NCBI GenBank assembly: GCA_950295325.1
Contig: OX485805.1
Span: 5,208,501 to 5,272,500, forward strand
Reading direction: 5' to 3'
DNA from: Polytrichum commune
Lineage: Eukaryota > Streptophyta > Polytrichopsida > Polytrichales > Polytrichaceae
Length of the DNA stretch: 64,000 bases
Shown here: one piece after another, positions 19,901 through 43,867 of the stretch
Layout: every line of letters begins with the position of its first letter
Position numbering within the stretch: the stretch's first letter is position 1
Translations under genes and position numbers: made by a program
The notes under the pieces: model-generated
The model's database searches: none
What the model was told of the DNA's origin: nothing
Seen by the model: only the letters and a program-made list of their open reading frames with translations

Positions 19901-19986
19901 TTTACGAACGAACGTTCGTAAAAGTCATTGCATTTCAATTTTCTATTTTTCATGAAGTTTCCATTTCACGAACGTGCGTTCGTATT
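19901..19986. repeat. Two A-type palindromes in intron 1
   Basis: Copies at 19901-19922 and 19965-19986 lie in the 124-bp intron 19896-20019. The first starts five bases after the GTATG donor and the second ends 33 bases before the acceptor, so the two sites occupy about a third of the intron. Confidence 0.88.
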
Positions 19987-21366: not shown

Positions 21367-21505
21367 TTTACGAACGCTCGTTCGTAAACACTGCATGCTC
21401 CAAACAATTTATCATGGGCAACCGATACTTATGATTGTTTTGTGAATTGTTTTGTTAATATTTCCTCGCTCGAAGCCTTTATGTTTACGAACGCGCGTTC
21501 GTATA
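21367..21505. repeat. Two A-type palindromes in intron 2
   Basis: Copies at 21367-21388 (centre CT) and 21484-21505 (centre CG) lie in intron 21346-21533. The copies lie 21 bases inside the donor and 28 bases inside the acceptor. Confidence 0.88.
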
Positions 21506-22516: not shown

Positions 22517-22538
22517 TTTACGAACGCGCGTTCGTGAA
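22517..22538. repeat. A-type palindrome inside a coding exon
   Basis: A near-perfect copy (centre CG) lies in exon 3 of the element A gene and is translated in frame as LRTRVR. It sits in a low-complexity, probably disordered region where insertion would be tolerated. Confidence 0.85.
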
Positions 22539-22775
22539 TCTTCAGGTCCGGCAGTCCTAACCCCTCCCCCTCCAAGGGTAGGATTGGCCTCAGTCACTGA
22601 CACCGCCTCTTTGACAGTCGTCCCGAGGGTAGTGGATAGGCAGGGCGATGAATCTGCGCAATACACTGACATGGTCATTGTGGAGGAAACGCAGGGGAGC
22701 CCCAATGACGCGGCAACTGTCCAAGGAATGGACGTTGAGAGCCCTGACCTGGGACGACATCCATCCGGGACGACA

Positions 22776-22779
22776 CTTG
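22776..22779. other. Left target-site duplication of element B (CTTG)
   Basis: CTTG directly precedes the left terminal repeat and recurs at 43,697-43,700 directly after the right one. Taking one copy out rejoins the element A reading frame. Four bases alone could match by chance; the frame restoration is the stronger support. Confidence 0.65.
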
Positions 22780-22820
22780 TATGTGAGCGTAGAGCGGAGA
22801 GCGGAGATTTGGAGAGCGGA
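22780..22820 (+). repeat. Element B left terminal inverted repeat
   Basis: Starts TATGTGAGCG and continues through AGAGCGG repeats to GGAGAGCGGA. It matches the reverse complement of 43657-43696 with one substitution and one single-base indel. A short second match (CCTATTTCCGTGG) follows further inside both ends, near 22,936 and 43,605. Confidence 0.85.
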
Positions 22821-23282
22821 GAGCGTAGAGGAAATAAAAATAGTAAACTTGTCAGACTAAAATTAGGATATTCCAAAATAGCCAAGAATATTCCATAATA
22901 TTCCAGAATTTGACAATAATAGTAAAAAAATTGGACCTATTTCCGTGGGATGTATAGGTCATAAAATAAAATAAAAATCCTGAATTTGAAATGGTCTCAT
23001 TAAGTTTGGAAACCGTGAGGTGGTTGAATTATTAAAACCAATGATGACTACAAGAAAAATCAATGAAAATGGATTTTTTGAGATTGGTATAATTGAAGAA
23101 TGAGTCAATCAATATACAAAGGAATCAAAATAATAAACTTGCTTGGTTTTTATTCATCACTTTTCTCTTTGTCTTATATGTGAGTCTATTCTATAGCTTG
23201 GACTTTAGCAATTATCGTTTGTGGCCGAATAGATTATAAATTGGACTCATACCCAACATAATTGTATATACAGTTGCACACA

Positions 23283-23750
23283 ATGGGAGATGAGAGAGAC
23301 ATGTTTGCTGGATTAGGATGGGAGAAGGAAATTAGAAGTCTAGGAGATCCTCATATTCCATTTAATCCATCGCCGGAATTTGAGTTTGCTGCTGGAAATC
23401 AAAGTAGTGATGACTACGAGCTGACTCCATTTTCGCAGTCTACACAAGCATGGAGGTGGAGGGTGCAGGAGGAGCAAAAACAATATGAGAAAAAGGAAAA
23501 AAGGCAGGAAGATGTGCCGGAGAAGGATGTTGATTTAGATGAAGACAAATCGAACGAAACGGAGGAGGAGGTGAAGGTGGAAGAGGAATCTTCGAAGTCT
23601 CTTTCATTTCGCGAACGGATGAGAGGAATGACGCCGCATCATCTTCCGCTGAAGGATCGAAAGAGAGATAAGACAATTTCTTATATGGATTTGCTTCGAC
23701 CGGGTCCACCTCCCTCGCAATCATCTAAGAAGTATGCAAAACGGAAATAG
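23283..23750 (+). CDS. Small acidic charged protein of element B, unknown
   Basis: A 155-residue frame starting at the ATG at 23283, about 500 bp inside the left end of element B. It begins MGDERDMFAGLGWEKEIRS, has a hydrophobic/proline patch (PHIPFNPSPEFEF), a long Glu/Lys-rich charged middle (roughly residues 60-115) that may be helical, and a basic C-terminus (KKYAKRK) that could act as a nuclear signal. A splice acceptor-like ACAG lies just before the ATG. Its end faces the transposase gene, which ends at 23,912 on the other strand. I do not recognise the family. Its position suggests an accessory protein of the transposon. Confidence 0.5.
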   Translation: MGDERDMFAGLGWEKEIRSLGDPHIPFNPSPEFEFAAGNQSSDDYELTPFSQSTQAWRWRVQEEQKQYEKKEKRQEDVPEKDVDLDEDKSNETEEEVKVEEESSKSLSFRERMRGMTPHHLPLKDRKRDKTISYMDLLRPGPPPSQSSKKYAKRK

Positions 23751-23911
23751 AGTTGATAGACATAGGAAGCATTGTAATACAAAATTTTGAAGCAAATAAA
23801 AATAATCATTGAGATTATACCTTTATTATATCAATCAATTATTGCTTCACAAGAGGTCCAAAAATGGACACATATATCATAGCCCAAAGTACTGCTAGGC
23901 TGAGATAAATC

Positions 23912-26900
23912 CTAAGAAGTAGACTTTGTCAAAAGACCCCCTTCGAGGATGAGTTTGACTTCGTTGAAGCTAAATGTCGGGGCGTGAATGAACAAATTCA
24001 CTTCCGCATCCAAATTAGAAACCTTGATGAAAATGTAATACAAATGCTTACAATTCAAATAAGAATTTCGTTTGCGGCTGAACTTGGAAATCATATCCAA
24101 GAAAAATGCGCAGTTGCACTCTGGAAGAGAACTGACTGTCACTTGGTAGATCGGTGGTTGGGGTTCTGATTTGGACTGCAGTGTGATAATGCAACCAAAT
24201 CCCGGTTGAGGGATCATAGTTAACTTCATAACGGTACCATGCATAGCTTCAGCAGAGGCCACCATCTGCCTCTGCTTTGCCGAAGGTGCGCTACTGGATC
24301 GCCGAACAAGCTTGGACAATCTTGTCGGAGGGATCATGTCGGGGTTTTCTGGAACACGGATTCCAGACATATCCAGCGGGGGAGCAGAGTTGGTGAAGAG
24401 TTGAGTCGGTGTGATGCGCTCCTTTGGTGGGAGTTGAAAACCTGCGTTCTCAAGGGCGAAGATATCCGAGCGGGTGAGGTTGGTACCAATCTTCACGGGC
24501 CAGATTGGGGGAATAGGAGGCTTCTGGTCATGAGCAGAGAACGGCATGACCCATTTCCGACGAGGGCCCTTCACGCAACGCTCAATGTCGTCGGGGCAAA
24601 AGACAAAGTCCGTGCGCTTCATAGATTGGAGTTTGTAATGATGCCACATACCGGTGTAGGTCGGCGCAGGGACGCTCTTATTATTAGTGACGATTCTTGC
24701 GGTGCACTTCTTCTTCGTGCCCGCATGATTAGCCCAACAAGACTTCCCAGACGTATAGGGTATGCGGGCAATATGCCAAAGAGAGACATCTACTTTGGTT
24801 TCTTGCACGGCAGTGACACGCTGGAAACCAAGTCCTGCAGGTGAAGGCACTTGAACCTCTTGTACAGAGGGGGAAGACTCCTCAATGATAGTGGGTAGTG
24901 TTTCTGGTTGAGATCGAGTGACACGCTTACCGGGGGGAGGGCGAGAGAAGTTCACGGTATCGGGGCGGTGGGTCTCGCCATCATCACCAATTGGAGTGTC
25001 TGATCTTCGCTTCTGCGATCCAAACACCTCGGCGCCCTCAAGGTGTGGATCGCGAGTGCAAAATTCTTCCCCACCGGACATGTCAAGCAAGACCTTCTGC
25101 AACACTGTGGGGTCGCCAGTACGCTGAGCTCGACGTTGAGCACCCCTGAGCTTTAGTTCTTCTTTGCTTGGACCATCTCCGCCAATTCCACCTTTAAGGA
25201 ACTGGTAGTATGCAACAACTTGTAAGAAGGCGCGAATGTAGTCGTCAACCGTAGCCACGTATAGATCTCCACCCTTGTTGCCGGAGGCTTGAAGCCATTT
25301 GTTGTAGACGGACTCCGCAAGATTGCACGACGGCATCTCGGCCAATTGGTCTTGGGTTAAAACCTTTTCCTGATTGGAGAAATCAAGTATTAATATAAAT
25401 GTACAGAGAGAGGAAATCGAATCCAAGAAAAACCAATAATGAATTATGAAGGAGATGTACCAGTTCCATGAAACCACCCCATTGAAGGTAGCGGAAGTGC
25501 CAAAAAGCAAGCCAGAGCTGAAGATGCTTGAGACCGTCCTCACTTGTACAATTCGATGACGCCCACCAAGCCTTGATAGCTAGGTACCTAGTCTCAGCCT
25601 CTTCCATAGATGACGCATTTCGATATTGAAGGCAAAGATGTCTATGTTGGTCTTGTAACTCATGCTTTATATACGATTTCGTATGTTTTTCGAGCGATTG
25701 TTTCCAATGGAAAAAACAAGTGCGCTCACGACCCTCCATTGGAACTTTGGGATCCCCCGAACCATATACAATGCGAACATCGTTCCAATTGGCTTGGGCA
25801 CTGTCCGCCATGAAGCCTATAAAGTTTGGATGTGGGATACTGTGAGGCCAAACCCCCCACCCTTAAGCGTCCGTAGTCCGAGTAGTGGGTTTGGGCTCAC
25901 ATTCCTCCGCGGTATTGGATTTGGACTTGGATGAGTCCATAGTGCAAGGTTCACCCTTCAAGTGGTCTTGGATTTAACTGGAATTTCACTTTTAACAACT
26001 CAATGTACAATTTCAATACGTATGTGGAGAATGCACAAGTTAACTATGTTATTTTAACCTCCTTATGCTCGGGTGCTATTTTGTCTTTGTTTGCTTCTAA
26101 CGTCCATCCGGCCGCTTTAGCTACACAAGCCCTTAAGGATATCCCTCTCCTAAATGGAGTCCGTGCCGTTGACTCTATACTACCACTTGAACTATCACTT
26201 GTGTATTCCGTATCGCTACTATAAGAGGTCTCACTTGGTGTCTCCATACCGTACATAAGCCTTTAAGTATTAAGAAATACTTATGTGACTTATGTCAATC
26301 TCTCCCTCGCACCTTTGGTCTTTGCTTCCTTTGTCTTGCCACCGCGAGAGTGCTCCACATTCTCCATTAATTTGTGCACGTGGTTTATTTTTAAAGAGAG
26401 GATGCAAGTGTTAAAAAAAACACTATTCTCTATAGTCAATCTCAAATACATTTACTTGTGAAAGCCACCATAACACTAACTAGCATAATGTAACTAACTA
26501 CTTGTCTATGAGCTAATTAGGTAGGCTATCTACTAAGTTCCTTCATGAACCCATCTCTTTACTTTCTAATTACATAAACCTAGCTCCTTCATAAACCCAG
26601 GTCCTTCATAAACCCAGCTCTTTACTTTCTAACTAAACAAACCTAACTCCTTCATAAACCCAGCTCTTTACTTTCTAACTAAACAAACCCAGCTCCTTCA
26701 TAAACCCAGCTCCTTCATGAACCCACAACTTTGTAGTTGTAATCCCCAACTACCTCACTAATTATTCAAGCCCTTAACTAATCTTCCTACCTAATTTCCC
26801 TAATTCTACTAACAACCCCTTTCTAATCACACAATTCTTCTCTAATCCTAAAATCCTAAAATCCTAGAGAGGAGAGGGGGAGAGAGAATTTCCTAACTTC

Positions 26901-29690
26901 ACTAAGACTAACTAATCCACACAAGTATATTTTTGCACTCATCACAACATCAAGTGCTCAACTCTTAAACATGGAACTTGCAACCACGTGTATTCAAAAC
27001 ATGAACTTTAAGTACCACAAATTGGAATCATGAATTAACTTTAAAATCCTTCACGTCAACACTAATTCTACCAAGAGGTCAAGCCCTCTTCAAGGCTAAC
27101 AAGCCTTGGCTCTCAAACTAAAAACTAAGCACACACATGTGCTCCAATATGGCTTCCCACACCCATACTTATAACTCGTGGGGTGCCTTGGAGCACAAAG
27201 GAAAGAGAGGATGAGTGAGGGAAGAATGAGGGATTATATAGTAAGCTTGAGGGGGTGAGCACCCTCAAGGCTCACGATAAGCCCTTGAGATTTCCTCCTA
27301 CTTAGTAGGCGCCAATCCTATCTTCTAAGCCTTCCTCCCTCAAATGATCAACAAGGATCCTAATTCGAACATTTAACTAGCCTTGGCTTTCTACCTACCA
27401 CACTTTACCAAACTTGGGATGCTTCAACCCAAACTTAGCCTCCTTCGCTTTCCGCCGCCATAACTTTCTCCCCTTACCTTCCCAAATCGTCGCTCACCAC
27501 TTAATTCAAACCACGATGCTTAACTCGTGATTTGATTGGTGCTTTGAGAATTTGCTTATCCTCCACCTTGCATTCTTCCTTGGGCCTTCCCCATTAAGTG
27601 GCCATGATGAGGTGGTCCACTTGTGCGCTCCATGTGATCCTCCATTCATCCCAATTCGAATGCACTTGCCTCTTGAGTCACTTTGGTTGTCTCCATCCAT
27701 TTGTACTAGCCTACTCACTAACTACTCAATCCAAGTTCTCCTTACCTATCCTCATTCACTCAAATCCTTCCGAAGGTAAAAACACAATAACAACTCACAT
27801 CCTAGCCTCTTACAACATGGTACTTCTAAGACTAACATTTCACTCTTTTAATATTTTTGTGAAGTAACATGCTACTTCAAAGTGCATCAACTAACGTTTC
27901 AAGGGTCTAAGACTAAATGTGGGCACCCTTTTGGGCTCACAGATACCGTGTCGGGCCATGACGTGGTTGAGGTTCTGCCAGAAGAGAACTTGGGCATCCT
28001 TATCCTCCGATTGGAAATCACAACATGAAATGGTCATGACCCGTTGATAAGTCCCATCGTACATATGAGCGGCCATGGTGGTCCACCCTTTGACCCGCTT
28101 CACGTGATCGGACATCATCCACGCGTTCTCCAGGTCCCCACCCGGTTGCATCCGACGAACCAAATCCACTCCACTTCCAGGACCAACCTCCGACATCTTG
28201 AAGACGAACACCTTGTCTGTATCGTCACCTTGTCCTGGGAATTGGTTCCGTTGGACGTAGGCCCAATTGCTAACGCCTCGGAGCTTTGCGATGCCATCCA
28301 TAACACCAAACCTCCGCAAATATTTGAAAGAGGTAACCTTAGAGCGAAGGTTTGGGGAATTCAACTCTCTACAGCTCTCAAAAACAGGTTCAAGCTCTTT
28401 TAAAGAGAAGAGACGGTGTGTGTCATTATCGCCAGAAAGGAGAAACTCACCAACAATGTCCTTGCTAGCTTCAAGGACGATCTTGCTGTGGGTGGCTTGA
28501 GGCGTACGTTCAACGTGCTCCTCAAGAAGTGCATTGATACGCTTCCGACTGTCTCTGCAGTCTCCAACCTTCACTGGATGTTGATGAGAACCGAGATGAA
28601 TGCAGGCTCTTTGGGATGACTCCTTCCCATGGACGTAGAAGATTTTGGCCTCGCATAGTGCAATGCATTTGGGAGGCTCTTTACAGATCCTGCAGACAAG
28701 AGTAGATCCGGATGGCACAATGCCAGAGAGACGGAAAGGATCTTTAGTGAAACCTTCAAATTCTGTGTCATTGACCTTAGAGGTACGATGGGCGCGTTGA
28801 AGGTAATCACAACTCGGGTTTTGGCATTGGAGATGGCCAACACAGGTAGAGGAACGAAATGCAAGGCCAACGTCGTTTGTAATGTTGGTGGTTTGAGTCT
28901 TAGTCCAAACATGGCCATCATATTGCTTGTCCATGCCGTCCAACGACTTGGCCCTGGTTTGAGATGAAGAGACTTCTGCTGCAGGGAGGACAAATAACTG
29001 GGTGCCATCGAAACGAGGGGGAAGGTGATTAACTTCTTGGATTTTGATTTTATCGTAATCTATTTTCTTGAGGACGTTCTTACTACCGGGCATAGAGCCA
29101 AGACGACGAAGACATTGAACAATAGTTTGAGGAGGTTTAGACGTAGGGACCGAAGGAGTTGAAGGGACAGAGCTAGATGGAGAAGGCGTTATGTAGGATG
29201 CAAAGGGAAACAAATGAGGGGAATCATGGACAGCAACCTTATACACTGGTACATCTTCACTCGAAGAATCAGACAAGTCTATAACGTTGTCTACACCAAG
29301 CTCGGTCTTGACGCTTATTACGGGGGGTGTGCTAAAGGCAACAGTGGATGATCGAAGAGGAGGAAGGATTTCTGTTGACACTTCCATCTGAGAATCTGGC
29401 CAGCCACAAACCCTATACTTTCCCGCGCCAAGCTCCCACACTACATTGCCATTGTCAGTTATCTTGGAGGTCTCATGGAAGGTATGAACGAGCAATCCAG
29501 TATCAGGATGGTAGATCTCACGCTCTACCCATATTGTACTAGCTTTCAAAGAGAACCTAATGCTAAGATGAAGCTCCGAGACAACAACAATACCTTGTGC
29601 ACCAATGGGGAATATAATAGGGACCCCGATGCCATGTGAACGAAGTTCGGCCATCTCAGAGACGGGAGGAAGAATTGAGGTGGAAGCCAT
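23912..29690 (-). CDS. MULE-like transposase with SWIM zinc finger
   Basis: Three exons with matching phases, 27947-29690, 25461-25816 and 23912-25369, encode about 1185 residues. The middle of exon 1 has a zinc-binding region (CQNPSCDYLQRAHR, then CRICKEPPKC and a CIHLGSHQHP stretch) like the WRKY/GCM-type DNA-binding domains of plant transposases. The RNase H-fold follows: WTTMAAHMYDGTYQRVM carries the likely first Asp, and GFMADSAQANW across the exon 1/2 junction the second. The acidic third residue should be in exon 2 (MEEAETRYLAIKAWW is one candidate). Exon 3 ends in a SWIM finger pattern, CNC then CKH. This order is typical of Mutator-like transposases. Intron 1 (25,817-27,946) is long. 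The ATG at 29690 follows the last upstream alternative start. No internal stop was seen, so it may be active on the element B ends. Confidence 0.75.
26576..26726. repeat. Short tandem repeat in the transposase intron
   Basis: Repeated blocks of CTCCTTCATAAACCCAGCTC and TTTACTTTCTAACTAAACAA alternate several times with small variations. It lies in intron 1 of the transposase gene. The rest of that 2.1-kb intron is AT-rich with no supported gene. Confidence 0.7.
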
Positions 29691-30009
29691 GAAGGCAGAG
29701 AAAGCAAACGTGAAGGAACAAAGATGCAAAGATGCATAGAGAAGGAGAATGGTGATGACGATGAAGTTATAAACAAATACGCATGAATATCAGGAAGGAG
29801 ACAAAACTGTCAGGCATCCTAAAAAAAGATACCCCTAATTACAAAGATGGTTGTCAGATAGTAAAGCGCGCCTCCCATCGGGAGGTATTGCAATTATATA
29901 CTGAGAAGAATGCGATTGCTCACTTTCTTTCCAATGTGTGAGTTTGATGTGGTGAGGTTGTGGAAAGGAAATAGAGCGAATAGGTCTGAATTGCGGGAGG
30001 GTTGAACAC
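29691..30009. promoter_or_regulatory. Divergent promoter region inside element B
   Basis: A 319-bp gap separates the ATGs of the transposase (-) and of the gene at 30,010 (+), so the two must share or abut promoters. I see no A- or B-type palindrome in it and no unambiguous TATA box. Confidence 0.45.
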
Positions 30010-30958
30010 ATGAAGGAAATAGGCAATTCACAACCTCCGACAACGGAACCATCTAAGAAAAAGAAGAGGAGGCGATCGTCTACACATTACACTGATAAGA
30101 AGAGAAAGACAGTGAGGACACAAAAGTCACAGGCAAGGAAAGCGCCAATTGAGGGCCGTGGGACGCCCGAGGATTTGAGCCAAAGCATAAAGGACCTGCG
30201 GAAACCTTCGTGGAGGTTAGACTGTGGGATTCGGCCTTTTCATTTATCACCGATTGTAGAAGAGGCGGACGGAAGTAAAGCGCAACCAATGGCAGAAGTG
30301 GAGGAGTTGGGAAACGACAGCATCCAAGAGGACTCACGCGAAGAGACAAACTCTACAAGTGTCGTACGTATTCTTCGGGTTCTCCATATATTCAGTTGTT
30401 TGAGCACATAATGAAAATGGTAGAACATATTCAACTGTGAAACAACTTTTCTTTTAGATATTATGGTTTGTCATCATTGTTATAAACATTGTTTTATCTT
30501 AAATATAGGAAGAGGGGGGGAGTGGAGATAGTGGAAATATCTATGAAGAAGACAACAAGGAGGTAGCACAACAAATTGAGAAGGCGTTAGAAGAGCGAGA
30601 ACCGATGTCGGGACAACCAACGATTCAAGCAAGAGAAAAAATGAAGGCGTCCAAGAGGAAAGCGGCAAAGGAAGATCTGAAATCAAATTTGTTGGGAGGC
30701 CGCGAAAGAGCTGAAGGAGGAGACCCATGCGCAGAAACCCTAAGTGTGGATGTTGTAACCCCTGCTTCAAGATTTCTGCGAAGCAAGGCGGGCGGAACAC
30801 AACAAACATCAAGGCGAGGGCGTGGCCGCGGGAGAGGAATGGCGCAAATAAACCTCGGAGATTCGAGAAGCACTCCAATATCGCCGACAGAGGACGGGAC
30901 CTCGGAAGATAGTGGCGCCAATATAGGGGCTTCAGTGGAGGGCATACTCCAAATTCTG
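30010..30958 (+). CDS. Basic/acidic nuclear-like protein, possibly the N-terminus of the ParB/methyltransferase-like protein
   Basis: Two exons, 30010-30363 and 30509-30958, give 268 residues with intron GTACGT...ATATAG. The protein is low complexity: a Lys/Arg-rich stretch near the start (KKKKRRR), acidic stretches, and an RGRGRGRG tract near residue 225. It looks like a nuclear, nucleic-acid-binding tail rather than a folded enzyme. The second exon ends at a GTAAGG donor in phase 0. The next good acceptor in compatible phase is at 38,510, directly before the ATG of the ParB gene, so the two may be one gene with a 7.55-kb intron containing the palindrome array. It may instead be a separate gene ending at the TAG at 31,028. 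Confidence 0.5.
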
Positions 30959-33900
30959 GTAAGGTGTCGGGATCTCGGCCAAGCTATGTTCGCCAACGTT
31001 TTTGCTTTCTATCACCTTGATTTCTCATAGTATTTGGAATATCAGCTTGACTTGCTTTCGGCCTTGTCTTGATTTGGGTTTAGGAACATGTTAGGAAAGG
31101 TATGTTTGTGCTTGAAAAATCAAAAGGTTATGTGCACATCATGTTGCTCTCGGCCTTGTCTCGTTTTGTGTAGTGCACAAGAACGAGCTAGGGCAAGAGG
31201 CCTCGGATCCGAGGCCTCATATTTGTGTAAGTTTGAGTATGTGAGAGGTAGGGTTTTGAGGGAGGTGAGGTTCTTGATTTCTCAACCTAATAGAATGTCA
31301 ACTTTCTTGCTTTCTTGATTCCTTGCTCTCGGCCATTTCTTCTATTGTGTAGTGCATAAGTGGGAGCCATAGGAAGAGGCCTCGGATCCGAGGCCTCTTA
31401 TTTGTGGGTAGGTTTGTGCTTGAAAAATCAAAATGTTATGTGCACATCAATTGCTCTCGCCCTTGTCTTGTTTTGTGTAGTGCATAAGAAGGAGCTAGGG
31501 GAAGAGGCCTCGGATCCGAGGCCTCTTATTTGTGTAAGTTTGAGTATGTGAGAGGTAGGGTTTTGAGAGAGGTGAGGTTCTTGATTTCTCAAACTAATGG
31601 AATGTCAACTTTCTTGCTTTCTTGATTCCTTGCTCTCGGCCATTTCTTCTATTGTGTAGTGCATAAGTGGGAGCCATAGGAAGAGGCCTCGGATCCGAGG
31701 CCTCTTATTTGTGGGTAGGTTTGTGCTTGAAAAATCAAAATGTTTTGTCCACATCGATTGCTCTCGGCCTTGTCTCGTTTTGTGTAGTGCATAAGAAGGA
31801 GCTAGGGCAAGAGGCCTCGGATCCGAGGCCTCATATTTGTGTAAGTTTGAGTATGTGAGAGGTAGGGTTTTGAGGGAGGTGAGGTTCTTGATTTCTCAAC
31901 CTAATAGAATGTCAACTTTCTTGCTTTCTTGATTCCTTGCTCTCGGCCATTTCTTCTATTGTGTAGTGCATAAGTGGGAGCCATAGGAAGAGGCCTCGGA
32001 TCCGAGGCCTCTTATTTGTGGGTAGGTTTGTGCTTGAAAAATCAAAATGTTATGTGCACATCAATTGCTCTCGCCCTTGTCTTGTTTTGTGTAGTGCATA
32101 AGAAGGAGCTAGGGGAAGAGGCCTCGGATCCGAGGCCTCTTATTTGTGTAAGTTTGAGTATGTGAGAGGTAGGGTTTTGAGAGAGGTGAGGTTCTTGATT
32201 TCTCAAACTAATGGAATGTCAACTTTCTTGCTTTCTTGATTCCTTGCTCTCGGCCATTTCTTCTATTGTGTAGTGCATAAGTGGGAGCCATAGGAAGAGG
32301 CCTCGGATCCGAGGCCTCTTATTTGTGGGTAGGTTTGTGCTTGAAAAATCAAAATGTTTTGTCCACATCGATTGCTCTCGGCCTTGTCTCGTTTTGTGTA
32401 GTGCATAAGAAGGAGCTAGGGGAAGAGGCCTCGGATCCGAGGCCTCTTATTTGTGTAAGTTTGAGTATGTGAGAGGTAGGGTTTTGAGAGAGGCGAGGTT
32501 CTTGATTTCTCAAACTAATGGAATGTCAACTTTCTTGCTTTCTTGATTCCTTGCTCTCGGCCATTTCTTCTATTGTGTAGTGCATAAGTGGGAGCCATAG
32601 GAAGAGGCCTCGGATCCGAGGCCTCTTATTTGTGGGTAGGTTTGTGCTTGAAAAATCAAAATGTTTTGTCCACATCGATTGCTCTCGGCCTTGTCTCGTT
32701 TTGTGTAGTGCATAAGAAGGAGCTAGGGCAAGAGGCCTCGGATCCGAGGCCTCATATTTGTGTAAGTTTGAGTATGTGAGAGGTAGGGTTTTGAGGGAGG
32801 TGAGGTTCTTGATTTCTCAACCTAATAGAATGTCAACTTTCTTGCTTTCTTGATTCCTTGCTCTCGGCCATTTCTTCTATTGTGTAGTGCATAAGTGGGA
32901 GCCATAGGAAGAGGCCTCGGATCCGAGGCCTCTTATTTGTGGGTAGGTTTGTGCTTGAAAAATCAAAATGTTATGTGCACATCAATTGCTCTTGCCCTTG
33001 TCTTGTTTTGTGTAGTGCATAAGAAGGAGCTAGGGGAAGAGGCCTCGGATCCGAGGCCTCTTATTTGTGTAAGTTTGAGTATGTGAGAGGTAGGGTTTTG
33101 AGAGAGGTGAGGTTCTTGATTTCTCAAACTAATGGAATGTCAACTTTCTTGCTTTCTTGATTCCTTGCTCTCGGCCATTTCTTCTATTGTGTAGTGCATA
33201 AGTGGGAGCCATAGGAAGAGGCCTCGGATCCGAGGCCTCTTATTTGTGGGTAGGTTTGTGCTTGAAAAATCAAAATGTTTTGTCCACATCGATTGCTCTC
33301 GGCCTTGTCTCGTTTTGTGTAGTGCATAAGAAGGAGCTAGGGCAAGAGGCCTCAGATCCGAGGCCTCATATTTGTGTAAGTTTGAGTATGTGAGAGGTAG
33401 GGTTTTGAGGGAGGTGAGGTTCTTGATTTCTCAACCTAATAGAATGTCAACTTTCTTGCTTTCTTGATTCCTTGCTCTCGGCCATTTCTTCTATTGTGTA
33501 GTGCATAAGTGGGAGCCATAGGAAGAGGCCTCGGATCCGAGGCCTCTTATTTGTGGGTAGGTTTGTGCTTGAAAAATCAAAATGTTATGTGCACATCAAT
33601 TGCTCTTGCCCTTGTCTTGTTTTGTGTAGTGCATAAGAAGGAGCTAGGGGAAGAGGCCTCGGATCCGAGGCCTCTTATTTGTGTAAGTTTGAGTATGTGA
33701 GAGGTAGGGTTTTGAGAGAGGTGAGGTTCTTGATTTCTCAAACTAATGGAATGTCAACTTTCTTGCTTTCTTGATTCCTTGCTCTCGGCCATTTCTTCTA
33801 TTGTGTAGTGCATAAGTGGGAGCCATAGGAAGAGGCCTCGGATCCGAGGCCTCTTATTTGTGGGTAGGTTTGTGCTTGAAAAATCAAAATGTTATGTGCA

Positions 33901-33969
33901 CATCAATTGCTCTCGGCCTTGTCTTGTTTTGTGTAGTGCACAAGAACGAGCTAGGGCAAGAGGCCTTCT

Positions 33970-34465
33970 CTACACTTGTTTTGGAACACATAAAAGAGGC
34001 CTCGGATCCGAGGCCTCATTCACAAACTAGTTTACATCCTCAAAAACAAGCGAAGTGCCTCATTCATACAAGTTATACTTTGAATCAAAAAACCTCAAGT
34101 GGCCTCGGCCGAGAGGCCTCGGATCACTTTGGCCGAGAGGCCTCGGATCACAAGCTAGAGGCCTCTCGGCCACTTTGGTTGGTTTTGAGTATGTAAACTA
34201 GTTTGTGAATGAGGCCTCGGATCCGAGGCCTCTCTTATGTGTTCCAAAACAAGTGTACGGAAGAGGCACTTTGGTTGGTTTTGAGTATGTAAACTAGTTT
34301 GTGTGTAAGGCCTCGGATCCGAGGCCTCTCGGCCGAGGCCACTTGAGGTTTTTTGATTCAAAGTATAACTTGTATGAATGAGGCACTTTGCTTGTTTTTG
34401 AGGATGTAAACTAGTTTGTGAATGAGGCCTCGGATCCGAGGCCTCTTTTATGTGTTCCAAAACAT
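33970..34465. repeat. Long inverted repeat within the palindrome array
   Basis: About 150 bp at 33,977-34,117 recurs as a nearly exact reverse complement at 34,315-34,460, with a loop of roughly 200 bp. Each arm carries B-type palindromes and the block TCGGCCGAGAGGCC. The arms would form a long cruciform or, if transcribed, a long hairpin RNA. Confidence 0.75.
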
Positions 34466-34618
34466 GTGTACGGATGAGGCACTTTGGTTTGTTTTGAGTA
34501 TGTAAACTAGTTTGTGAATGAGGCCTCGGATCCGAGGCCTCTCTTATGTGTTCCAAAACAAGTGTACGGAAGAGGCACTTTGGTTGGTTTTGAGTATGTA
34601 AACTAGTTTGTGTGTAAG

Positions 34619-35500
34619 GCCTCGGATCCGAGGCCTCTCGGCCGAGGCCACTTGAGGTTTTTTGATTCAACGTATAGCTTGTATGAATGAGGCACTTTGC
34701 TTGTTTTTGAGTATGTAAACTAGTTTGAAAATGAGGCCTCGGATCCGAGGCCTCCTTTTAGTGCCCTCGATCAGCAGTCCCCAGGGAGTGGCTCCCGGGA
34801 CTCCGAATGTTCAAACAGGCATAACTTCCTTGATTTTTGCCCAAATGGGGCAAGTGAGGTGTCCATCGGCATCTACATTTCACGTAGATGACGATAGAGT
34901 GGTTGATTGTTAGATTCGGAGACCACACGTGGAAGATATGGAGGTCTGAAGCTGCCGGGGGGGGGAAATGTGTTTTGTTAAGTGCATATGTAGAAGCTAG
35001 GAGAAGAGGCCTCGGATCCGAGGCCTCTTTTATGTGTTCCAAAACTAGTGTACGGATGAGGCACTATGGTTGGTTTGGAGTACGTAAATTACTTTGTGTG
35101 TGAGCCCTCGGATCCGAGGCCTCTCAGCCGAGGCCACTTGAGGTTTTTTGATTCAACGTATAGCTTGTATGAATGAGGCACTTTGCTTGTTTTTGAGTAT
35201 GTACACTAGTTTGAAAATGAGGCCTCGGATCCGAGGCCTCCTTTTAGTGCCCTCGATCAGCAGTCCCCTGGGAGTGGCTCCCGGGACTGCGAATGTTTAA
35301 ACAGGCATAACTTCCTTGATTTTTGCCCAAATGGGGCAAGTGAGGTGTCCATCGGCATCTACATTTCACGTAGATGACGATAGAGTGGTTGATTGTTAGA
35401 TTTGGAGACCACACGTGGAAGATATGGAGGTCTGAAGCTGCGGGGGGGGGGGGAAATGTGTTTTGTTAAGTGCATAAGTAGGAGCTTTGGGAAGAGGCCT
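34619..35500. repeat. Direct duplication of ~487 bp within the array
   Basis: The segment starting near 34,619 repeats from about 35,106 with few differences. Each copy contains a unique ~250-bp block not seen elsewhere in the array. That block has two small hairpins: a GGGAG...CTCCC stem near 34,784 and 35,270, and CATCTAC...GTAGATG near 34,870 and 35,357, followed by a poly-G run of 8-11 bases. Confidence 0.75.
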
Positions 35501-37130
35501 CGGATCCGAGGCCTCTTTTTTGTATCAAGGTTTGTGCTTGAAAAATCAAAATGTTAGGTTCATTTTTGAATTCTCTCGGCCATTTTCTGTAGTATGTATT
35601 TCATAAGGAGGGGCATTCGGAAGAGGCCTCGGATCCGAGGCCTCATTTTTGTGTCAAGGTATGTGCTTGAAAAATGAAAATCTTATGTTCATTTTTGAAT
35701 GCTCTTGGCCTTCTTGTTTTGGGTAGTGCATAAGTAGGTACTTTGTGAAGAGGCCTCGGATCCGAGGCCTCATTTTTGTGTCAAGGTATGTGCTTGAAAA
35801 ATGAAAATCTTATGTTCATTTTTGAATGCTCTTGGCCTTCTTGTTTTGGGTAGTGCATAAGTAGGTACTTTGTGAAGAGGCCTCGGATCCGAGGCCTCAT
35901 TTTTGTGTCAAGGTATGTGCTTGAAAAATGAAAATCTTATGTTCATTTTTGAATGCTCTTGGCCTTCTTGTTTTGGGTAGTGCATAAGTAGGTACTTTGT
36001 GAAGAGGCCTCGGATCCGAGGCCTCATTTTTGTGTCAAGGTATGTGCTTGAAAAATGAAAATCTTATGTTCATTTTTGAATGCTCTTGGCCTTCTTGTTT
36101 TGGGTAGTGCATAAGTAGGTACTTTGTGAAGAGGCCTCGGATCCGAGGCCTCATTTTTGTATCAAGGTATGTGCTTGAAAAATGAAAATCTCATGTTCAT
36201 TTTTGAATGCTCTTGGCCTTCTTGTTTTGGGTAGTGCATAAGTATGTGTTTTGGGAAGAGGCCTCGGATCCGAGGCCTCATGTTTGAGTCAATTTTATTT
36301 AAGAAAAATCAAAATGTTATGTTCGTGTAAGATTACTCTCGGCCTTCTTGTTTTGGGTACTACATGAGTAGGAGGTTTGTGAAGAGGCCTCGGATCCGAG
36401 GCCTCTTGTTTGTGTAAGTTTGAGTATGTGAGAGGTAGGGTTTTGAGAGAGGCGAGGTTCTTGATTTCTCAAACTAATGGAATGTCAACTTTCTTGCTTT
36501 CTTGATTCCTTGCTATCGGCCATTTCTTCTATTGTGTAGTGCATAAGTGGGAGCCATAGGAAGAGGCCTCGGATCCGAGGCCTCTTATTTGTGGGTAGGT
36601 TTGTGCTTGAAAAATCAAAATGTTATGTGCACATCAATTGCTCTCGCCCTTGTCTTGTTTTGTGTAGTGCATAAGAAGCAGCTAGGGGAAGAGGCCTCGG
36701 ATCCGAGGCCTCATATTTGTGTAAGTTTGAGTATGTGAGAGGTAGGGTTTTGAGAGAGGCGAGGTTCTTGATTTCTCAAACTAATGGAATGTCAACTTTC
36801 TTGCTTTCTTGATTCCTTGCTATCGGCCATTTCTTCTATTGTGTAGTGCATAAGTGGGAGCCATAGGAAGAGGCCTCGGATCCAAGGCCTCTTATTTGTG
36901 GGTAGGTTTGTGCTTGAAAAATCAAAATGTTATGTGCACATCAATTGCTCTCGGTCTTGTCTTGTTTTCTGTAGTGCATAAGAACCAGCTAGGGGAAGAG
37001 GCCTCGGATCCGAAGCCTCCTATTTGTGTAAGTTTGAGTATGTGAAAGGTAGGGTTTTGAGAGAGGTGAGGTTCTTGATTTCTCAAACTAATAGAATGTC
37101 AACTTTCCTGCTTTTTTGGTTCCTTGCTCT

Positions 37131-37670
37131 CTGCCTTGTGCCCCACGGGTGAACACCCGTGGGCCATGTAACAAGTAATTTGGTTAGGTTTTAACATCAT
37201 CAAATGTGTGCCCCACGGGTGAACACCCGTGGGCCATGTAACAGGTAACTTGGGTAGGATTTAGCATCATCACGGGGAGATGTCTCCATGTCAAATATTT
37301 TTAAAAATTATGATTTTTTTTCTCTATATTCATAACTATTGATTATATCTTTTGTATATTTTTTTGAAATTTTTTGTCATCTTCATTTTTTCTAGTAATT
37401 GTTTTAGTTGAATTCTGCGTCATTCTAGGTAGAAATGGTATGTTTTCTAGAAAAATATGGTCATCAAATTTGGTCATGATATTTTACTTCGTAATAGATA
37501 TCATGTATATCTACGTCCCAAAAAAATTTGAGAAAATTTTGACCCATTTTGGTGATGCAACTTGGCAATGGAGTGACCTCCCCTGGAACATCATCAAATG
37601 TGAACCTCACGGGTGAACACCCGTGAGCCATGTAACAAGTAAATTGGTTAGGTTTTAAAATCATCAAGGA
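37131..37670. repeat. Three CCACGGGTG hairpins around an AT-rich insert
   Basis: Hairpins at 37142-37163, 37212-37233 and 37606-37627 have a stem CACGGGTG / CACCCGTG with an AA centre, and are followed by the same tail (CCATGTAACAAGTAA, then TTGGTTAGGTTTTA, with small variations). In the third copy the outer pair changes on both sides (CCCAC...GTGGG becomes CTCAC...GTGAG), so pairing is kept. Between copies two and three lies ~340 bp of AT-rich DNA. The block interrupts the B-type palindrome array. Confidence 0.7.
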
Positions 37671-38513
37671 GGGGCATTTGGAAGAGGCCTCGGATCCGAG
37701 GCCTCATTTTTGAGTCAGGTTGTGTGCTTGAAAAATGAAAATGTTAGGTTCATTTTTTAATTCTCTCGGCCATTTTCTGTAGTATGTATTTCATAAGGAG
37801 GGGCATTCGGAAGAGGCCTCGGATCCGAGGCCTCATTTTTGTGTCAAGGTATGTGCATGAAAAGTTAAAATGTTATGTTCATTTTTGAATGCGCTTGGCC
37901 CTCTTGTTTTGGGTAGTGCATAAGTAGGTACTTTGTGAAGAGGCCTCGGATCCGAGGCCTCATTTTTGTGTCAAGGTATGTGCTTGAAAAATGAAAATCT
38001 TATGTTCATTTTCGAATCCTCTCGGCCTTCTTGTTTTGGGAAGTGAATAAGTATGTGTTTTGGGAAGAGGCCTCGGATCCGAGGCCTCATATTTGTGTCA
38101 ATTTTATGCTAGAAAAATCAAAATGTTATGTTCGTGTAAGATTGCTCTCGGCCTTCTTGTTTTGGGTACTACATGAGTAGGAGGTTTGTGAAGAGGCCTC
38201 GGATCCGAGGCCTCATTTTGGAGACAATGTATGTGCTTGAAAAGTCAAACTGCTATGTTCACATAAGATTTCTCTCGGCCTTTTTCTTTTGGGTAGTGCA
38301 TAAGGAGGAGGTAGGAAAAGAGGCCTCGGATCCGAGGCCTCTCATTCGTAGGTAGGTTAGTGCTAGAGTTGAGCACTTGACTTAGCATTCGGCCATTTCC
38401 ATTTGTAGTTTGCTCTCGGCCTTGTATTGTTTTTGTGAGGATTTGTTTATTTATAGTTACGAAGTTATTGACTTTTCTTTGTGAAATTCTCATTTTCTCC
38501 ATGTTCTTAGGAT

Positions 38514-41500
38514 ATGGACTCTTCACAGGTTGCGCAATCGCAACCCCAATCTGGAGAGGATGTTGTTCTTGCGGCCCCCGCGGTTGAAGTTGAAGCTGTG
38601 CAGGTTGAGAGTCTCAATTCGCAGGGCCCATTACAAGTAGAGGTGAGTTGGATAGTTGTTGAATAATTTGTTAAGCAAGTTTTTTGAGTTCTAGCTTTCT
38701 AAGCATGGTTTTATTGTTTGTGTTTTTGTTAGGCTCTCGCAATGAGCGAAGATGCCGTTCAAGCAGTTGCCGACACGGATCCCGTGGTGTGTGAGCTTGA
38801 GCTTCGGAAATCACAAAAGGAGGACTCCATTGGTGTTATCCAACGCCTTCGGATTAAGCCAACATGTAAGTCCCGCTTATCCATTCCTTTATGCCGCTTG
38901 AGAGCCCTCCCTCTCGTCCGTCCTATCAGTGAGGTTGAGGTGCAGCGCTTGGAATGTGAATTTGTAATGGGATACCGAGAGGGTGATCGGGTTTTTTACG
39001 TGTCTTCTTTCAACGACGTTCCCGTGGACCTCCCCATTCCCCCTGGCATTATGGCCTCTTGGAGCCCTCTCTGGCAAGAGGCCTCCGCAGAATTTGACGC
39101 CAAGCTCAAGGAGGATCCGGATCTTGCACATTTCGCCGGGAAGATGTTCTTCGTCTGGGAAGGCAATCATCGTCTCACCGCTTGGTGGAGACACATCAAT
39201 AACCACCACGCCGATGACAAGAGTTGGCATATCTCGGTGGATTGCATTGTTGTTGACCCTAGAGGATACACCGGTATATTTCTCAATGCCATGAGCGACA
39301 TTAATTGGTAAGCTCATTCATTTTTTTCATTCATTTTTCATTTTTGTTTCAATTCTTTTCCATTCTTTTCAGCTCACGTTCCTCACATATTTTTTCTCAG
39401 GTCAACCGAGCATGATTATGTCAAGGCAAACATTCCGGCCAAGCTCCTTCGAATCCGCACTTTTGGGAGGTTAGAGTTGTCCACCTTCAAGGATCTTATA
39501 TCGCCATCTGACTACAAAGCATGCGAGAAGATAAAGGAGAGTCGCCCAACTTGGTACACCTTGACCGCGGATGTGTTCGTTAAGTTTCTTTACAAGGTAT
39601 GGTTTTATGCATTCAATCATTTAGAGCTTCCAACATAGATAATTTCCATACCGATTATATGAACTCACAAGGTCATTTCTTGCAGAGAGACATTTTGGCT
39701 CAAGCAGACCTTGCAGTGAGGCATTACCGTGAGACCACACCCGTTGCGGAGAGGTCGGCCACTGAGATTTGGAATGTTATGACCAAGGCCCAGGAGAGGA
39801 CAATCAAAAGTATTCGGGCCCGTTCTTTTGAGAAGTACATATCCGTTGCACACCCTGACAATGGAGAGGATTTCTTTCATGAGGTACTCTTTTGAACTCA
39901 AATCACTCTTGAACGCAATTCATCCAAATCACTCTTCAACTCTATTACTCTTTTGAATTCAAATCATTTTTATTTTGTGCACAGATTGACCGTTATTTTA
40001 ATGAGTTCTCTTCGACGGACATGACAATTGAAAAATTACAAAAAATTGTCACATGCCCGGTCGAAGCTTCGTTCAAAGCTAAGTGGCTTCACTGGTGGAA
40101 CGCTCCCCTTCGTGAAAGGTTAGATAACAAGTTCCCCGTCGACAAGCCTATGAAGGAGAGGGCTTTGGACGACTGGCTACACAAGGCGTCCTTCTGGGCT
40201 CAAGTAAATCCATTCCTCGGCCTTCTTCATTTTCATTTTCCTCTATTCCATTTATCTCATATCTAATCATCTCCTTCTCTGCAGTTGGAGAAAGAAGTCG
40301 CGGTTGAAATTGAGACCTTAGAGGAGAGCCTCTCCGTCGACATTGATTGGGACGCATCAGAAACTATCTTGCGCCCTCGTGAGTACGTTGATCATTGGCG
40401 GATTGTCCTTTGGGACAAGGCCTTCAAGCCTTATCTCGGCGATAAGCCTGACATCGCATTTGCCAAAGGTGATAATCTCTTGGAGTTCGAGGAGGGGGCT
40501 CTCGCTATCAAGCGTGTAGCCTATCGGTAATACATCTATCCTCCACTTTGCACCTCTCCTTAATGTCATTTCTTGCTCGTTTTGTTGGTTTTCTTACATT
40601 CTTGTTTTGTCATGTAGGTATATCATGAGAGAATTGGTTGTGAAGAATGCATTGGCCTCATCTTCCTTGCCGGACTACCTCTCGGACTGGGTGAATATTT
40701 TTTCTAGCCTCTGCGTGTATACGACCGCGCAAACAAACAAGTTTTCCGAATTGCACTTGCAGGGTGGTGGATGGTACTTGGATTGTGCTGCAGGATTTGT
40801 CCCCGGGGAAGAGAAGGCTTTGTTTGCTAGCCTTGTGGGTAGTGCTCTGGATAATAACATTGTTACCTTGGAGGACCCTGACATCGTTGAGCTTCCCCCT
40901 CCTCCTCCTAAGGCACCAAGGAGAAAGGGCAGAGCAAAGAAGACCGCCACTCAAGCATCTTCCCAAATTCTCACTCGGTCTGCTTCTAAGACCCCGGTTG
41001 AGCCACCCACCCTTCCACACAGTCCATCTATCGCTCCCTCCGTTGCTCCCTCTCTTGCCCCTTCTGTTACTCCATCTGCATTTCATCCACAATCTCTTGC
41101 CACTCCATCTCATAGTGGCACTTCTCTCCTCTCTTTGCCTCGCAAGAGGAAGGCCGCTCTCTTGGATACCAGTGCCACCTCTTCGGATGCCACTAACACG
41201 CTTACCCTCATCGAAAATGTGGACATGGTTCAACTAATGCTGGATTCCGAGGTTGCCGGAGGTCCCCTCCCCGCATATACCTGCATCCAAGAGTTCATTG
41301 CCAAGGTTTGTATACTTGCCTTCGTCAATTCTCAATTTTTTTTCCTTTGCTTTGTTTATTTTTTTCCTTCTTGTTTTCTCATGAAGTTTCAATTGCAGGT
41401 TGGGGCAGGTCGTTCCCGTGTGAACACCTCGACTACAACTCACAAGGGCCTCGATTTGCTCTTCGCCGACATTCCCGAAAATTTGCCGGTGCCGAACATC

Positions 41501-42714
41501 TCCACCGATGTTCCTGCTTGGAACAAGCTCCATGAATCATACTATGAGTGTCTTTTTGCATTTGCGAAATCTAACCTCTATGATCATGGTGTCCTTGTTC
41601 TTGCCCATTGTGCGAGTGCCAGTGTTTCTAGGAGTATTTTCGATTGGGCACACACTTATGACTTCTACGTCGCGGAAGATTGGTTTGGAATGAATGATTT
41701 AGACCTCCAATCTCCCGTTGTTCCCTCTGGAGTGGTAAGCAAGTCTCCCTCTCTTCCCCTTCCGTATTGCTTATCATTTCAATTTCAATTCAATTTCAAT
41801 TCCATTTCATTTCAATTCAATTTCATTTTCATTGTTGCAGATTCGGAAGTTCAACATCAAAGTTCTTGTTCGTGTTAACTCCGTTCTTAGAGTGCGGGAG
41901 GAGGCCATACAAGAGTATGGTTACAACCTCCAACGAGATGGATGGTTGAATACCTTCACCGATGAGAAGAGCCAGACGATGCGCAGTGATGGGGTACCTT
42001 GGCGAGGTGCCCGTGAGAAGCATCCTGTTTTTTTTTCCATCCTTCTCGCTACTCTCACCGACAAGAATGATGTTATTATGGACTGGCAGTGTAGTGTAGG
42101 TACGCCTTCTTTTTCAACTTCATCCTTACTTTGAATTTTCCATTATTTTTCCTTGACTAGTTTTCATACTAACATTTTACCTCTCTTTGCTTTAGGTGGT
42201 TCGATTACAGCATGTCGCTCCCTTGAGCGGCATATTGTGGCCCTTGAGAGTGACCCTGTCATTTTCAATTCACTCCTACTCCCCATGCGCGATCCCCAGC
42301 CTGCGCGTATATCTCGCTCAGTTGCCGCACCGTCTACATCTATCTTTGATCCTCCTCAAAAGATGACCAAGAGGGCATTCGGATTTCTTTGTGCGTAAGT
42401 TTGCTTTCTATATTTTGCCATGTTTGCTTTGATTTCAAATTCTCATTTTCTAGTGTCATCATGTTTCTAATCCTTTTGCTTGGGTGTTTAGAGAGCCAGC
42501 GGAGGTCGCAGTCATTCGTCGAGACATGTTTTCAAGTCTTCCGAAGCCGTTTGAGCTTCCCCCGTATGCTAGTGCAATGGCGGATTGTTTTGCGAAGGCG
42601 GAGTCCCCATCTCCTCCTCGCGTTCGTCATTTCTCGCGTGGAACACGAAATCTTTTCTTGTTAGAAGCAAATGAGGGTGAGGAGAGTGATAGGGAATGTT
42701 CTCTAAGCCCTTAG
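38514..42714 (+). CDS. Element B ParB-like plus DNA-methyltransferase-like protein (intact)
   Basis: Eleven exons whose phases all close: 38514-38642, 38733-39307, 39401-39596, 39686-39883, 39985-40203, 40285-40526, 40618-41305, 41399-41734, 41841-42099, 42196-42394 and 42492-42714. They give 1087 residues, more if joined to the exons at 30,010. A ParB/sulfiredoxin-type fold is indicated by IPLCRLRALPLVRPISEVEV, then FFVWEGNHRLTAWWRHI (GNHR at residues ~187-190), then WHISVDCIVV. Exon 7 encodes a Pro/Ser-rich, basic linker. Exons 8-10 look like a beta-class N4/N6 DNA methyltransferase: LDLLFADIPE at the motif IV position (773-776, where DPPY is usual), LYDHGVLVLAHC, then KHPVFFSILLATLTDKNDVIMDW and GGSITACRSLERHIVALESDP at motifs X/I/II. 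The SAM-binding DPFxGSG is replaced by DWQCSVGGS. Catalysis is therefore doubtful. I infer binding to the adjacent palindromes, as ParB binds parS. Confidence 0.75.
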
Positions 42715-42769
42715 TTTATCATTTTGGTTTTGGAGATTATAACTCCGTTTGTTGTTGTTATCCGGCTTT

Positions 42770-42775
42770 AATAAA
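42770..42775 (+). terminator. Poly(A) signal AATAAA
   Basis: AATAAA lies 55 bp after the TAG stop of the element B ParB/methyltransferase-like gene, at a usual distance for a plant 3' UTR. Confidence 0.55.
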
Positions 42776-42997
42776 AGTTGTGTGTTGGTTTTATTTTTGA
42801 TATCCGGCGCAAGTTTCATTCTTTCTTTCCATTATTTCATATTCATATGTCAACCCGCATTGCATTCTTTATTTTTTCTTCATCGTTCGGATCTCTTAAC
42901 TTCTAGTCACAAAACAATCTAGCTCTCGGCTCTTAGTGTGAGATCTTAGTTATAGGGGGACCATACTTTCTATTAGTGTGGATGGTTTATTTTATGG

Positions 42998-43306
42998 TTG
43001 TGCACACTAATCACATTGGCCGTCTTCCAATCCCAATTGCTATATAGCAATTGGAAGTTTTGTTTGGCACGCGAACATAACCTCGTCAAACTTTTTAAAT
43101 TGAAATTCATGTTGTTCTCAAAGAGCCGGCACGTCACCTCAAAAATTTCCAAGAGGATTCTAAGGTTGGACTTGGGGGATTTGTCTTTGAGGTCTTTGGC
43201 TAAGCTAAGGACTGAATTGGAAGGCTGTTATGGTGCGACGGAGTTTTATGGCATGTTCTTTGGATCATTTTACCCATATTGGACATGCCCGGCAGATAGG
43301 GTGTAG
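42998..43306 (+). CDS. Possible small protein near the right end of element B
   Basis: An open frame whose later part, from about residue 40 (SKSRHVTSKISKRILRLDLG, then LAKLRTELEGCYGATEFYG, ending in WTCPADRV), has ordinary protein composition. It has no recognised domain and no clear start or splice context. It could be an exon, a decayed gene or chance. The rest of 42,776-43,656 shows nothing I can name. Confidence 0.2.
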   Translation: MCTLITLAVFQSQLLYSNWKFCLAREHNLVKLFKLKFMLFSKSRHVTSKISKRILRLDLGDLSLRSLAKLRTELEGCYGATEFYGMFFGSFYPYWTCPADRV

Positions 43307-43656
43307 ATGGCCCTAAACTAGAGTATATAGTTATTTTAACTAACTACCCATTTTTGTAAGTCTTGAGGTTGGCTACATTTTGTTGACCAATAAAATATTT
43401 TGTGTATGGTATTTTGATTTCAATTTGGTGACGTCAGCCCTAATTTAATATGATACATTTGAAAACATATACTATAAGATGTTTGATAACAAATGCAATC
43501 TTCCACGCCTATAGGATCCGTTGGTTTCTCAAACAATTCTGGGTTATTATGTCCACGGGAATGGGGGTACCTTTCCAAATATAGAATTCAAACTATCTCT
43601 AATTCCACGGAAATAGGCACTGCTTCTCCTAAAATTACCCAACAAAATCTAAATTT

Positions 43657-43696
43657 TCCGCTCTCCAATCTCCGCTCTCCGCTCTCCGCTCACATA
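43657..43696 (-). repeat. Element B right terminal inverted repeat
   Basis: Forty bases, ending CGCTCACATA, that are the reverse complement of the left end. The repeat is built of CCGCTCT units. CTTG follows at once, then the element A frame continues. Confidence 0.85.
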
Positions 43697-43700
43697 CTTG
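43697..43700. other. Right target-site duplication of element B (CTTG)
   Basis: The second copy of CTTG directly abuts the right terminal repeat. The reading frame of element A exon 3 continues from 43,701. Confidence 0.65.
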
Positions 43701-43867
43701 AGTTTCCCCATCCATCCGCGGAGATGGAGGATGTCCACATGGACACTCTCGACCTGGGCGGAGACGACGACGACGACGACGAGGCGGACCACATTGTGCA
43801 GACCCAGGCGTCACAGTCGGAGCATGCCATAGATGCCATGGAGACAGAGGCGGCTGGCCCAATGGGG

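Follow-up and report, generated by a model that had tools for sequence, protein, structure and literature searches.

A palindrome array within a predicted intron of a transposon-encoded ParB-like gene in Polytrichum commune: candidate self-recognition sites with a possible anti-silencing role

Introduction

A stretch of 64,000 nucleotides from Polytrichum commune (GenBank assembly GCA_950295325.1, 407.8 Mb in 64 contigs; contig OX485805.1, forward-strand positions 5,208,501 to 5,272,500), which we call the window and whose numbering is used below unless a genomic position is given, contains a large transposon, element B, in which dozens of nearly identical 22-bp palindromes accompany a gene for a ParB-like protein. 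The locus raises the question of what such an array is for, and whether the protein encoded beside it is the one that reads it. A first-pass annotation had called it a "parS-like centromere or regulatory array of element B". Here we describe the array, the transposon that bears it, the ParB-like fold of the encoded protein (seen in a predicted structure model), the purifying selection on that domain and the match between palindrome class and protein lineage; we regard as real a system, spread over the whole genome, in which transposons encode ParB-fold proteins and carry palindrome arrays matched to them. As to function, our judgment leans modestly towards the array being a set of self-specific sites at which element B would be bound by the ParB-fold protein it encodes, most likely in an anti-silencing system like that of the VANC proteins.

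Results

Structure of the array

The array (31197..38341, unstranded, delimited by pattern matching at no more than one mismatch) holds 46 sites of the form GAGGCCTCGGATCCGAGGCCTC, 40 of them exact and six with a single mismatch, in agreement with the approximately 46 conserved 22-bp palindromes first reported; five further composite sites carry 4-6 mismatches. The site is a perfect palindrome, built as GAGGCCTC-GGATCC-GAGGCCTC, and the stretch contains 40 perfect palindromes of at least 22 bp, whereas 100 sequences simulated with a first-order Markov model contained not one. Across the genome GAGGCCTCGGATCCGAGGCCTC recurs in 1903 exact copies (reversed control: 0), and a search of viral contigs for the exact palindrome gave no match.

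The computed repeat architecture likewise matches the 307-bp units, ~127-bp units and unique blocks originally described: 307-bp units are repeated 9.3 times at 31099-33966, 127-bp units form two tandem runs (7.4 and 5.3 repeats), and there are further blocks of 486 bp and 309 bp. The palindrome is borne by the 307-, 127- and 486-bp units and also by units of 96-103 bp. The site at 33996 sits in a segment inverted relative to its neighbors. Within the array, an AT-rich block at about 37137-37666, probably a separate insert, is devoid of the main palindrome and has repeats of another, CCACGGGTGAACACCCGTGG.

Arrays of this kind amplify and homogenize (the 307-bp units are 96% alike), and perfect palindromes are able to fold; these properties would suit a passive satellite or nucleic-acid structure, in which gene conversion, hairpin formation or recombination maintains the palindrome with no protein partner. 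We hold this to be improbable in view of how the palindromes compare with their surroundings.

Conservation of palindromes and spacers

In the window, the mean majority share per column is 99.4% over the 46 palindromes as against 73% and 64% over the 45 bp on either side, which upholds the initial description of a near-invariant palindrome amid differing spacers; even where two distinct sites have flanks less than 40% identical (160 pairs), palindrome identity is still 97.8%. The first-pass annotation had expected the palindromes to be better conserved than the spacers in independent element copies, and such is the case: over the 45 pairs formed by ten loci, with 25 random unit pairs per locus pair, palindromes are 94.2% identical, flanks 61.7% and shuffled flanks 57.5%, the sites having been chosen at no more than two mismatches, a choice that favors the palindrome. 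Three of the 45 pairs (L008, L065 and L068 among themselves) have common spacers (90-92%) and those of L044 and L066 are partly alike (75%), while in most pairs the flanks are near the shuffled level. A similar trend is seen in 30 near-identical copies, which are not independent: outside CpGs, 13/3204 palindrome positions differ from the consensus versus 169/15093 spacer positions, with palindromes less diverged in 21 loci and more diverged in six.

A near-invariant 22-bp unit amid unrelated spacers at several loci is hard to obtain by gene conversion. Moreover, L008, L065 and L068 share a variant, GAGCCCTC, that disrupts pairing on one side with no compensation, which speaks against a palindrome kept for its folded structure. 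The look of the sites, their conservation relative to spacers and the ParB-like fold described below agree in supporting the original view of candidate protein-binding sites that belong with the ParB-like protein encoded by element B.

The ParB-like gene and its predicted intron

The array had been placed next to the ParB-like gene; it is indeed tied to that gene, but is not merely adjacent, as it lies wholly inside the predicted intron 2 (30959..38510, + strand, 7.5 kb), which has GT-AG borders, is in phase 0 at either end and preserves the reading frame. The predicted gene has 13 exons on the + strand with all introns GT-AG and a single open frame of 1356 amino acids. Exon 1 (30010..30363) is in frame with a GT donor and has, by eye, a basic stretch resembling a nuclear localization signal; it is 99% identical in the element copy at C1:2246924. 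Exon 2 (30509..30958) is in frame with AG/GT borders. Exons 3-13, spanning 38511..42714, lie at 38511-38642, 38733-39307, 39401-39596, 39686-39883, 39985-40203, 40285-40526, 40618-41305, 41399-41734, 41841-42099, 42196-42394 and 42492-42714. In the lineage at 81% identity, exons 4-8 align at 81.7-87.2%, four short introns align in part, and five intron donors read GT (best 26-mer match, 2-7 mismatches); exons 2 and 3 gave no alignment there, and the borders of intron 2 rest on the gene model of the window.

The region at 38742..39307 (+), with the motif EGNHRLTAW, adopts in the predicted structure model an N-terminal ParB domain-like fold of the ParB/sulfiredoxin superfamily, while at the sequence level neither Pfam nor NCBIfam assigns the protein to a ParB family, and PDB sequences gave no match. 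With a ratio of nonsynonymous to synonymous substitution rates (dN/dS) of 0.10, this domain shows purifying selection. Pfam detected no helix-turn-helix (HTH), DNA methyltransferase or DUF1985/DUF287 domain in the 1356-residue model. The fern Adiantum holds a relative (P0001; E 1.2e-13, with 27% identity across 25% of the query), and this, together with the predicted spliceosomal introns, points to a land-plant origin.

An alternative is that the ParB-like protein binds its own intron and simply represses or tunes, in the manner of KorB-type repressors and with no silencing role, its own transcription and that of the divergent transposase gene. Such autoregulation we deem unlikely: 46 sites spread along 7 kb, and amplified anew among different spacers in other lineages, far exceed the need of a simple operator.

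Palindrome classes and ParB-like lineages

A genome search with the exon for the ParB-like domain yielded 1285 candidate places, of which 150 were scored; 52 of these 150 are at least 92% identical to the exon of the window. For diverged lineages, stretches upstream of the exon were taken. The palindrome of the window was present in all 39 examined loci with 72-100% domain identity (the window's own included). Thirty of these fall at 96-100% identity (again counting the window's own), with 181 sites at no more than four mismatches, 155 of them exact; the other nine (L008, L044, L065-L071), at 72-88%, space their palindromes differently (e.g., 118, 128, 170 or 139-223 bp) and several have unrelated spacers.

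Beyond this range the palindrome changes. At 63-68% identity, nine of 11 loci carry a second class, ACCCTCTCGGNNCCGAGAGGGT, defined on L043-L049, with L043 and L059 bearing it in variant form; five of the six loci of this range that were fetched later (L059-L064) have it, and L050 has no site within 5 kb. In L060 (C7:39386951-39388150) an array of the half-site CCTCTCGGAATC, missing its mirror half, lies upstream of a 66% ParB-like exon, and this lineage may have lost the palindrome. At 59%, L047 and L048 have a third class, AATCCCACGGATCCGTGGGATT, as does L058 with one site. The second and third classes number 752 and 84 copies in the genome (reversed controls: 0). L051-L053 have 2-3 sites each of GGAACTGCTTTC-N6-GAAAGCAGTTCC, L054 and L057 have two and three sites of a TTCGGNNCCGAA class, and L055 and L056 showed no site within 1.2 kb. 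L054 (C5:33111501-33112700) also contains, besides palindromes with CGGNNCCG, a tandem block of CGTGGG-N7-CCCACG, like the CACGGGTG motif in the window array.

In sum, 26 of 30 diverged loci have a site of their own class and four have none; no locus among L043-L065 bore another class at three or fewer mismatches. In the window itself the class-VII pattern is matched once at that threshold. Classes B, III, VI and VII, four out of the five, have a common center, CGGNNCCG, while their 7-bp arms agree at just 2-4 of seven positions. The scan for exact palindromes is blind to the arrays of L043, L045, L046 and L049, whose centers are unpaired; scans for gapped inverted repeats detect them. Control tiles contained a palindrome three or more times in 4/51 (1.2 kb) and 2/11 (5 kb) cases, the motifs being those of known A- or B-type arrays, and 1.2-kb tiles outside known arrays gave 0/47. 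Conversely, among the clusters listed, a ParB-like match lay within 10 kb for 5/7 of AATCCCACGGATCCGTGGGATT, 3/4 of the window palindrome and 1/3 of CACCCTCTCGGNNCCGAGAGGGTG; this co-location used the first places listed for each pattern and the 150 scored of 1285 ParB-like places, so that clusters with no neighbor there prove nothing either way.

Two loci help separate the contribution of the ParB-like gene from that of the transposase gene, with which it stands head-to-head in the window and also in L044 and L049. The start of the L044 transposase is 72% identical to that of L049 (113 residues) versus 55% to that of the window (162 residues), and further along it is 63-77% identical to the window's. 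Its ParB-like gene (88%) and palindrome are of the window type, and the L049 palindrome is of another class; L044 thus looks like a natural recombinant. In L008, the transposase is 85% identical to that of the window over 603 residues and the ParB-like domain 81%, and its variant palindrome (GAGCCCTC...), set among spacers unlike the window's, is common to L065 and L068 (79-81%). Since L044 combines an L049-like transposase start with a window-type ParB-like gene and palindrome, these loci suggest that the palindrome follows the ParB-like gene and not the transposase, with linkage within the gene contributing to the association.

This bears on another alternative, namely that the array binds the transposase or a co-factor and helps pair the transposon ends, much as TnpA sites do in CACTA elements. 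In its favor, every part of the system is transposon-borne and the head-to-head transposase recurs, but the array is central rather than terminal and in L044 it goes with the ParB-like gene; we accordingly assign a transposition role only a slim chance. Binding of the cognate palindrome by the ParB-like protein, by comparison, appears very probable from the co-variation of the two.

We also observed that ParB-like matches, often with stops, are crowded at C4:42.4-59.1 Mb, which is possibly a non-recombining or heterochromatic block.

Element B

Element B is a terminal inverted repeat (TIR) transposon of 20,941 bp (22768..43708) lodged in a coding exon of another element, A. It is bounded by 10-bp target-site duplications, CATCCATCCG, at 22758..22767 and 43709..43718. 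Its TIRs, about 50 bp long, lie at 22768..22820 (+) and 43657..43708 (-), with 42 bp matched at 95% (22779-22820 to 43697-43657). These ends are fixed because a contiguous empty site exists, an element A copy at C1:2243858ff that reads through the insertion point, and because a second B copy (C1:2246924-2261912) has its own 10-bp duplication, TCCTTATATA. Duplications of 4 bp (CTTG) or of TA, considered from the window alone, are ruled out by the same two loci.

The transposase-like gene (23912..29729, - strand; open reading frames (ORFs) 27891-29729, 25383-25811 and 23912-25543) is split by a 2.1-kb insert at about 25841-27941, with TG...CA ends and, by eye, a 5-bp duplication GATAC. The insert, which looks like a solo long terminal repeat (LTR), is missing from two other copies and has further copies at C1:13.97-13.99 Mb. 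ORF 27891-29729 has 94 relatives at E <= 1e-3 with conserved Cys/His positions. No credible Pfam family, MULE included, was found for ORFs 27891-29729 and 23912-25543 or for the relatives P0002, P0003, P0006, P0021 and P0064, and P0002 has no NCBIfam match either.

These features bear on the centromere half of the first-pass description, by which the array would be a parS-type site segregating an extrachromosomal or chromosomal replicon. A ParB-like fold and a cluster of palindromes near its gene are what parABS systems would lead one to expect. However, element B is present in dozens of dispersed chromosomal copies, which makes replicon segregation unlikely; it combines TIRs and target duplications with introns predicted to be spliceosomal; and a scan of five element-B ORFs and of the spliced ParB-like protein (but not of small exons and ORF 25383-25811) detected no ParA family. 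We reject the centromere, to which we give hardly any credence, and keep the regulatory array, which fits.

Element A and its surroundings

Element A (14870-22757 and 43719-46400) constitutes a second palindrome system. Its palindromes, with a ACGAACGNNCGTTCGT core, lie directly upstream of a start codon (18123..18568), with more in introns and ends; the palindrome TTTACGAACGNNCGTTCGTAAA has 2909 exact copies in the genome (control: 0). The left part of its gene (18600..22757, +), which has a DGQH motif and continues after element B at 43719, contains an in-frame stop (19578-19580) and, at 19581-19895, sub-threshold matches to GmrSD_N (E 0.066), DUF6551 (0.096) and DGQHR (0.077). Downstream in element A is an NIF-phosphatase-like part (PF03031, E 6.8e-9), and just outside it an ORF at 47072-47785 weakly resembles a Dof zinc finger (E 2e-4, which falls short of the Pfam cut-off). 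No tRNAs, and no Rfam families at the gathering score, were detected in the whole window.

Discussion

A plausible mechanism may be outlined as follows. A dimer of the ParB-fold protein would occupy each two-fold symmetric site, recognizing the CGGNNCCG core that all classes but one of the five possess, while the outer arms would confer the specificity of each lineage; we infer such a self-reading dimer because the sites are two-fold, combine a common center with lineage-specific arms and have been amplified in each lineage. The protein would thereby act on its own element family and spare relatives. Less certainly, binding would be clustered, the protein perhaps loading and spreading in a nucleotide-dependent way like bacterial ParB and VirB, and the bound array might keep the chromatin of the element open against host silencing, as VANC does for VANDAL elements in Arabidopsis. 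Should binding hold, we consider anti-silencing its main function with slightly more confidence than we give the whole proposal, by analogy with these systems.

The CpG content of the locus needs to be set against this. In the near-identical copies CpG decay is equal in palindromes (16/356) and spacers (10/237); this gives anti-silencing no support and speaks against lasting hypomethylation. Observed/expected CpG is 0.71-1.12 in gene-holding parts of the element; the array has 0.56, the two flanks 0.56 and 0.34, and the LTR-like insert 0.44, a contrast that is suggestive only and confounded by coding content.

More tentatively still, a eukaryotic ParB-type clamp might serve as a self-recognition code of transposons, in which at least five lineages in one genome, each with its own palindrome of at least 22 bp (four being CGGNNCCG plus arms), would load the clamp with the aid of a nucleotide at an intron array, let it spread and so maintain private, non-cross-reacting anti-silencing.

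Whatever the function, the lineages provide candidate pairs of protein and site, in a series formed by nature, that might reveal how ParB-fold proteins encode their specificity: the domain is under purifying selection while the arms of the sites differ from lineage to lineage. Should anti-silencing prove true, a lineage unrelated to VANDAL by the protein it uses would have reached the VANC solution via a bacterial-type ParB fold; it would furnish a second system for testing how a transposon can evade silencing and yet do its host no harm, and sequence-specific tools for plant chromatin editing. The combination is novel, and both halves have precedent: motif arrays in transposon anti-silencing on the one hand, accessory proteins of transposons with a ParB-like domain on the other. 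A full-text literature search, with most subscription papers outside its scope, returned no paper, in the portions of text it covered, that describes a palindrome array in an intron together with a ParB-like gene; that on Ectocarpus (PMC12477816) came nearest.

Comparison with known systems

With MULEs element B has in common its TIRs, accessory ORFs and a 10-bp target duplication in two insertions, within the 8-11 bp of MULEs (PMC6446971); it differs in its transposase, which has no credible Pfam match, its short TIR (~50 bp) and its great length. From bacterial ParB, Noc, KorB and VirB, the last a ParB relative that is an anti-silencer requiring cytidine triphosphate (PMC10653881), it is set apart by its eukaryotic transposon setting, 22-bp sites with lineage-specific arms, and the lack of a detected ParA or Pfam-recognized HTH.

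Sola1-1_Ec32 of Ectocarpus, a 21.5-kb transposon, encodes an accessory protein of 1104 amino acids with ParB-like and DNA methyltransferase domains, and similar proteins are cited for green and red algae (PMC12477816). In both systems a large DNA transposon encodes a ParB-like domain and a transposase on opposite strands, and a self-binding role was proposed there. Unlike that protein, the 1356-residue model has no detected methyltransferase domain; the Ectocarpus element belongs to the Sola superfamily, whereas element B makes 10-bp target duplications, and the available portions of that paper mention no palindromic target array.

The closest functional parallel is with VANDAL elements, whose VANC proteins remove silencing (PMC5735166; PMC10398659) and of which VANC21 and VANC6 bind family-specific motifs, tandemly repeated in noncoding regions including VANC21 introns (PMC5735166). 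There are differences: VANC has DUF1985/DUF287, neither of which Pfam found here; the VANC21 motif is 9 bp in one orientation as opposed to 22-bp palindromes; and anti-silencing, demonstrated for VANC, is here proposed by analogy. Nevertheless, in both cases a transposon-borne second protein goes with family-specific short motifs in noncoding parts, including an intron (here a predicted one) of its own gene; the motifs are tandemly amplified and change rapidly between related elements, and related proteins are paired with different motifs.

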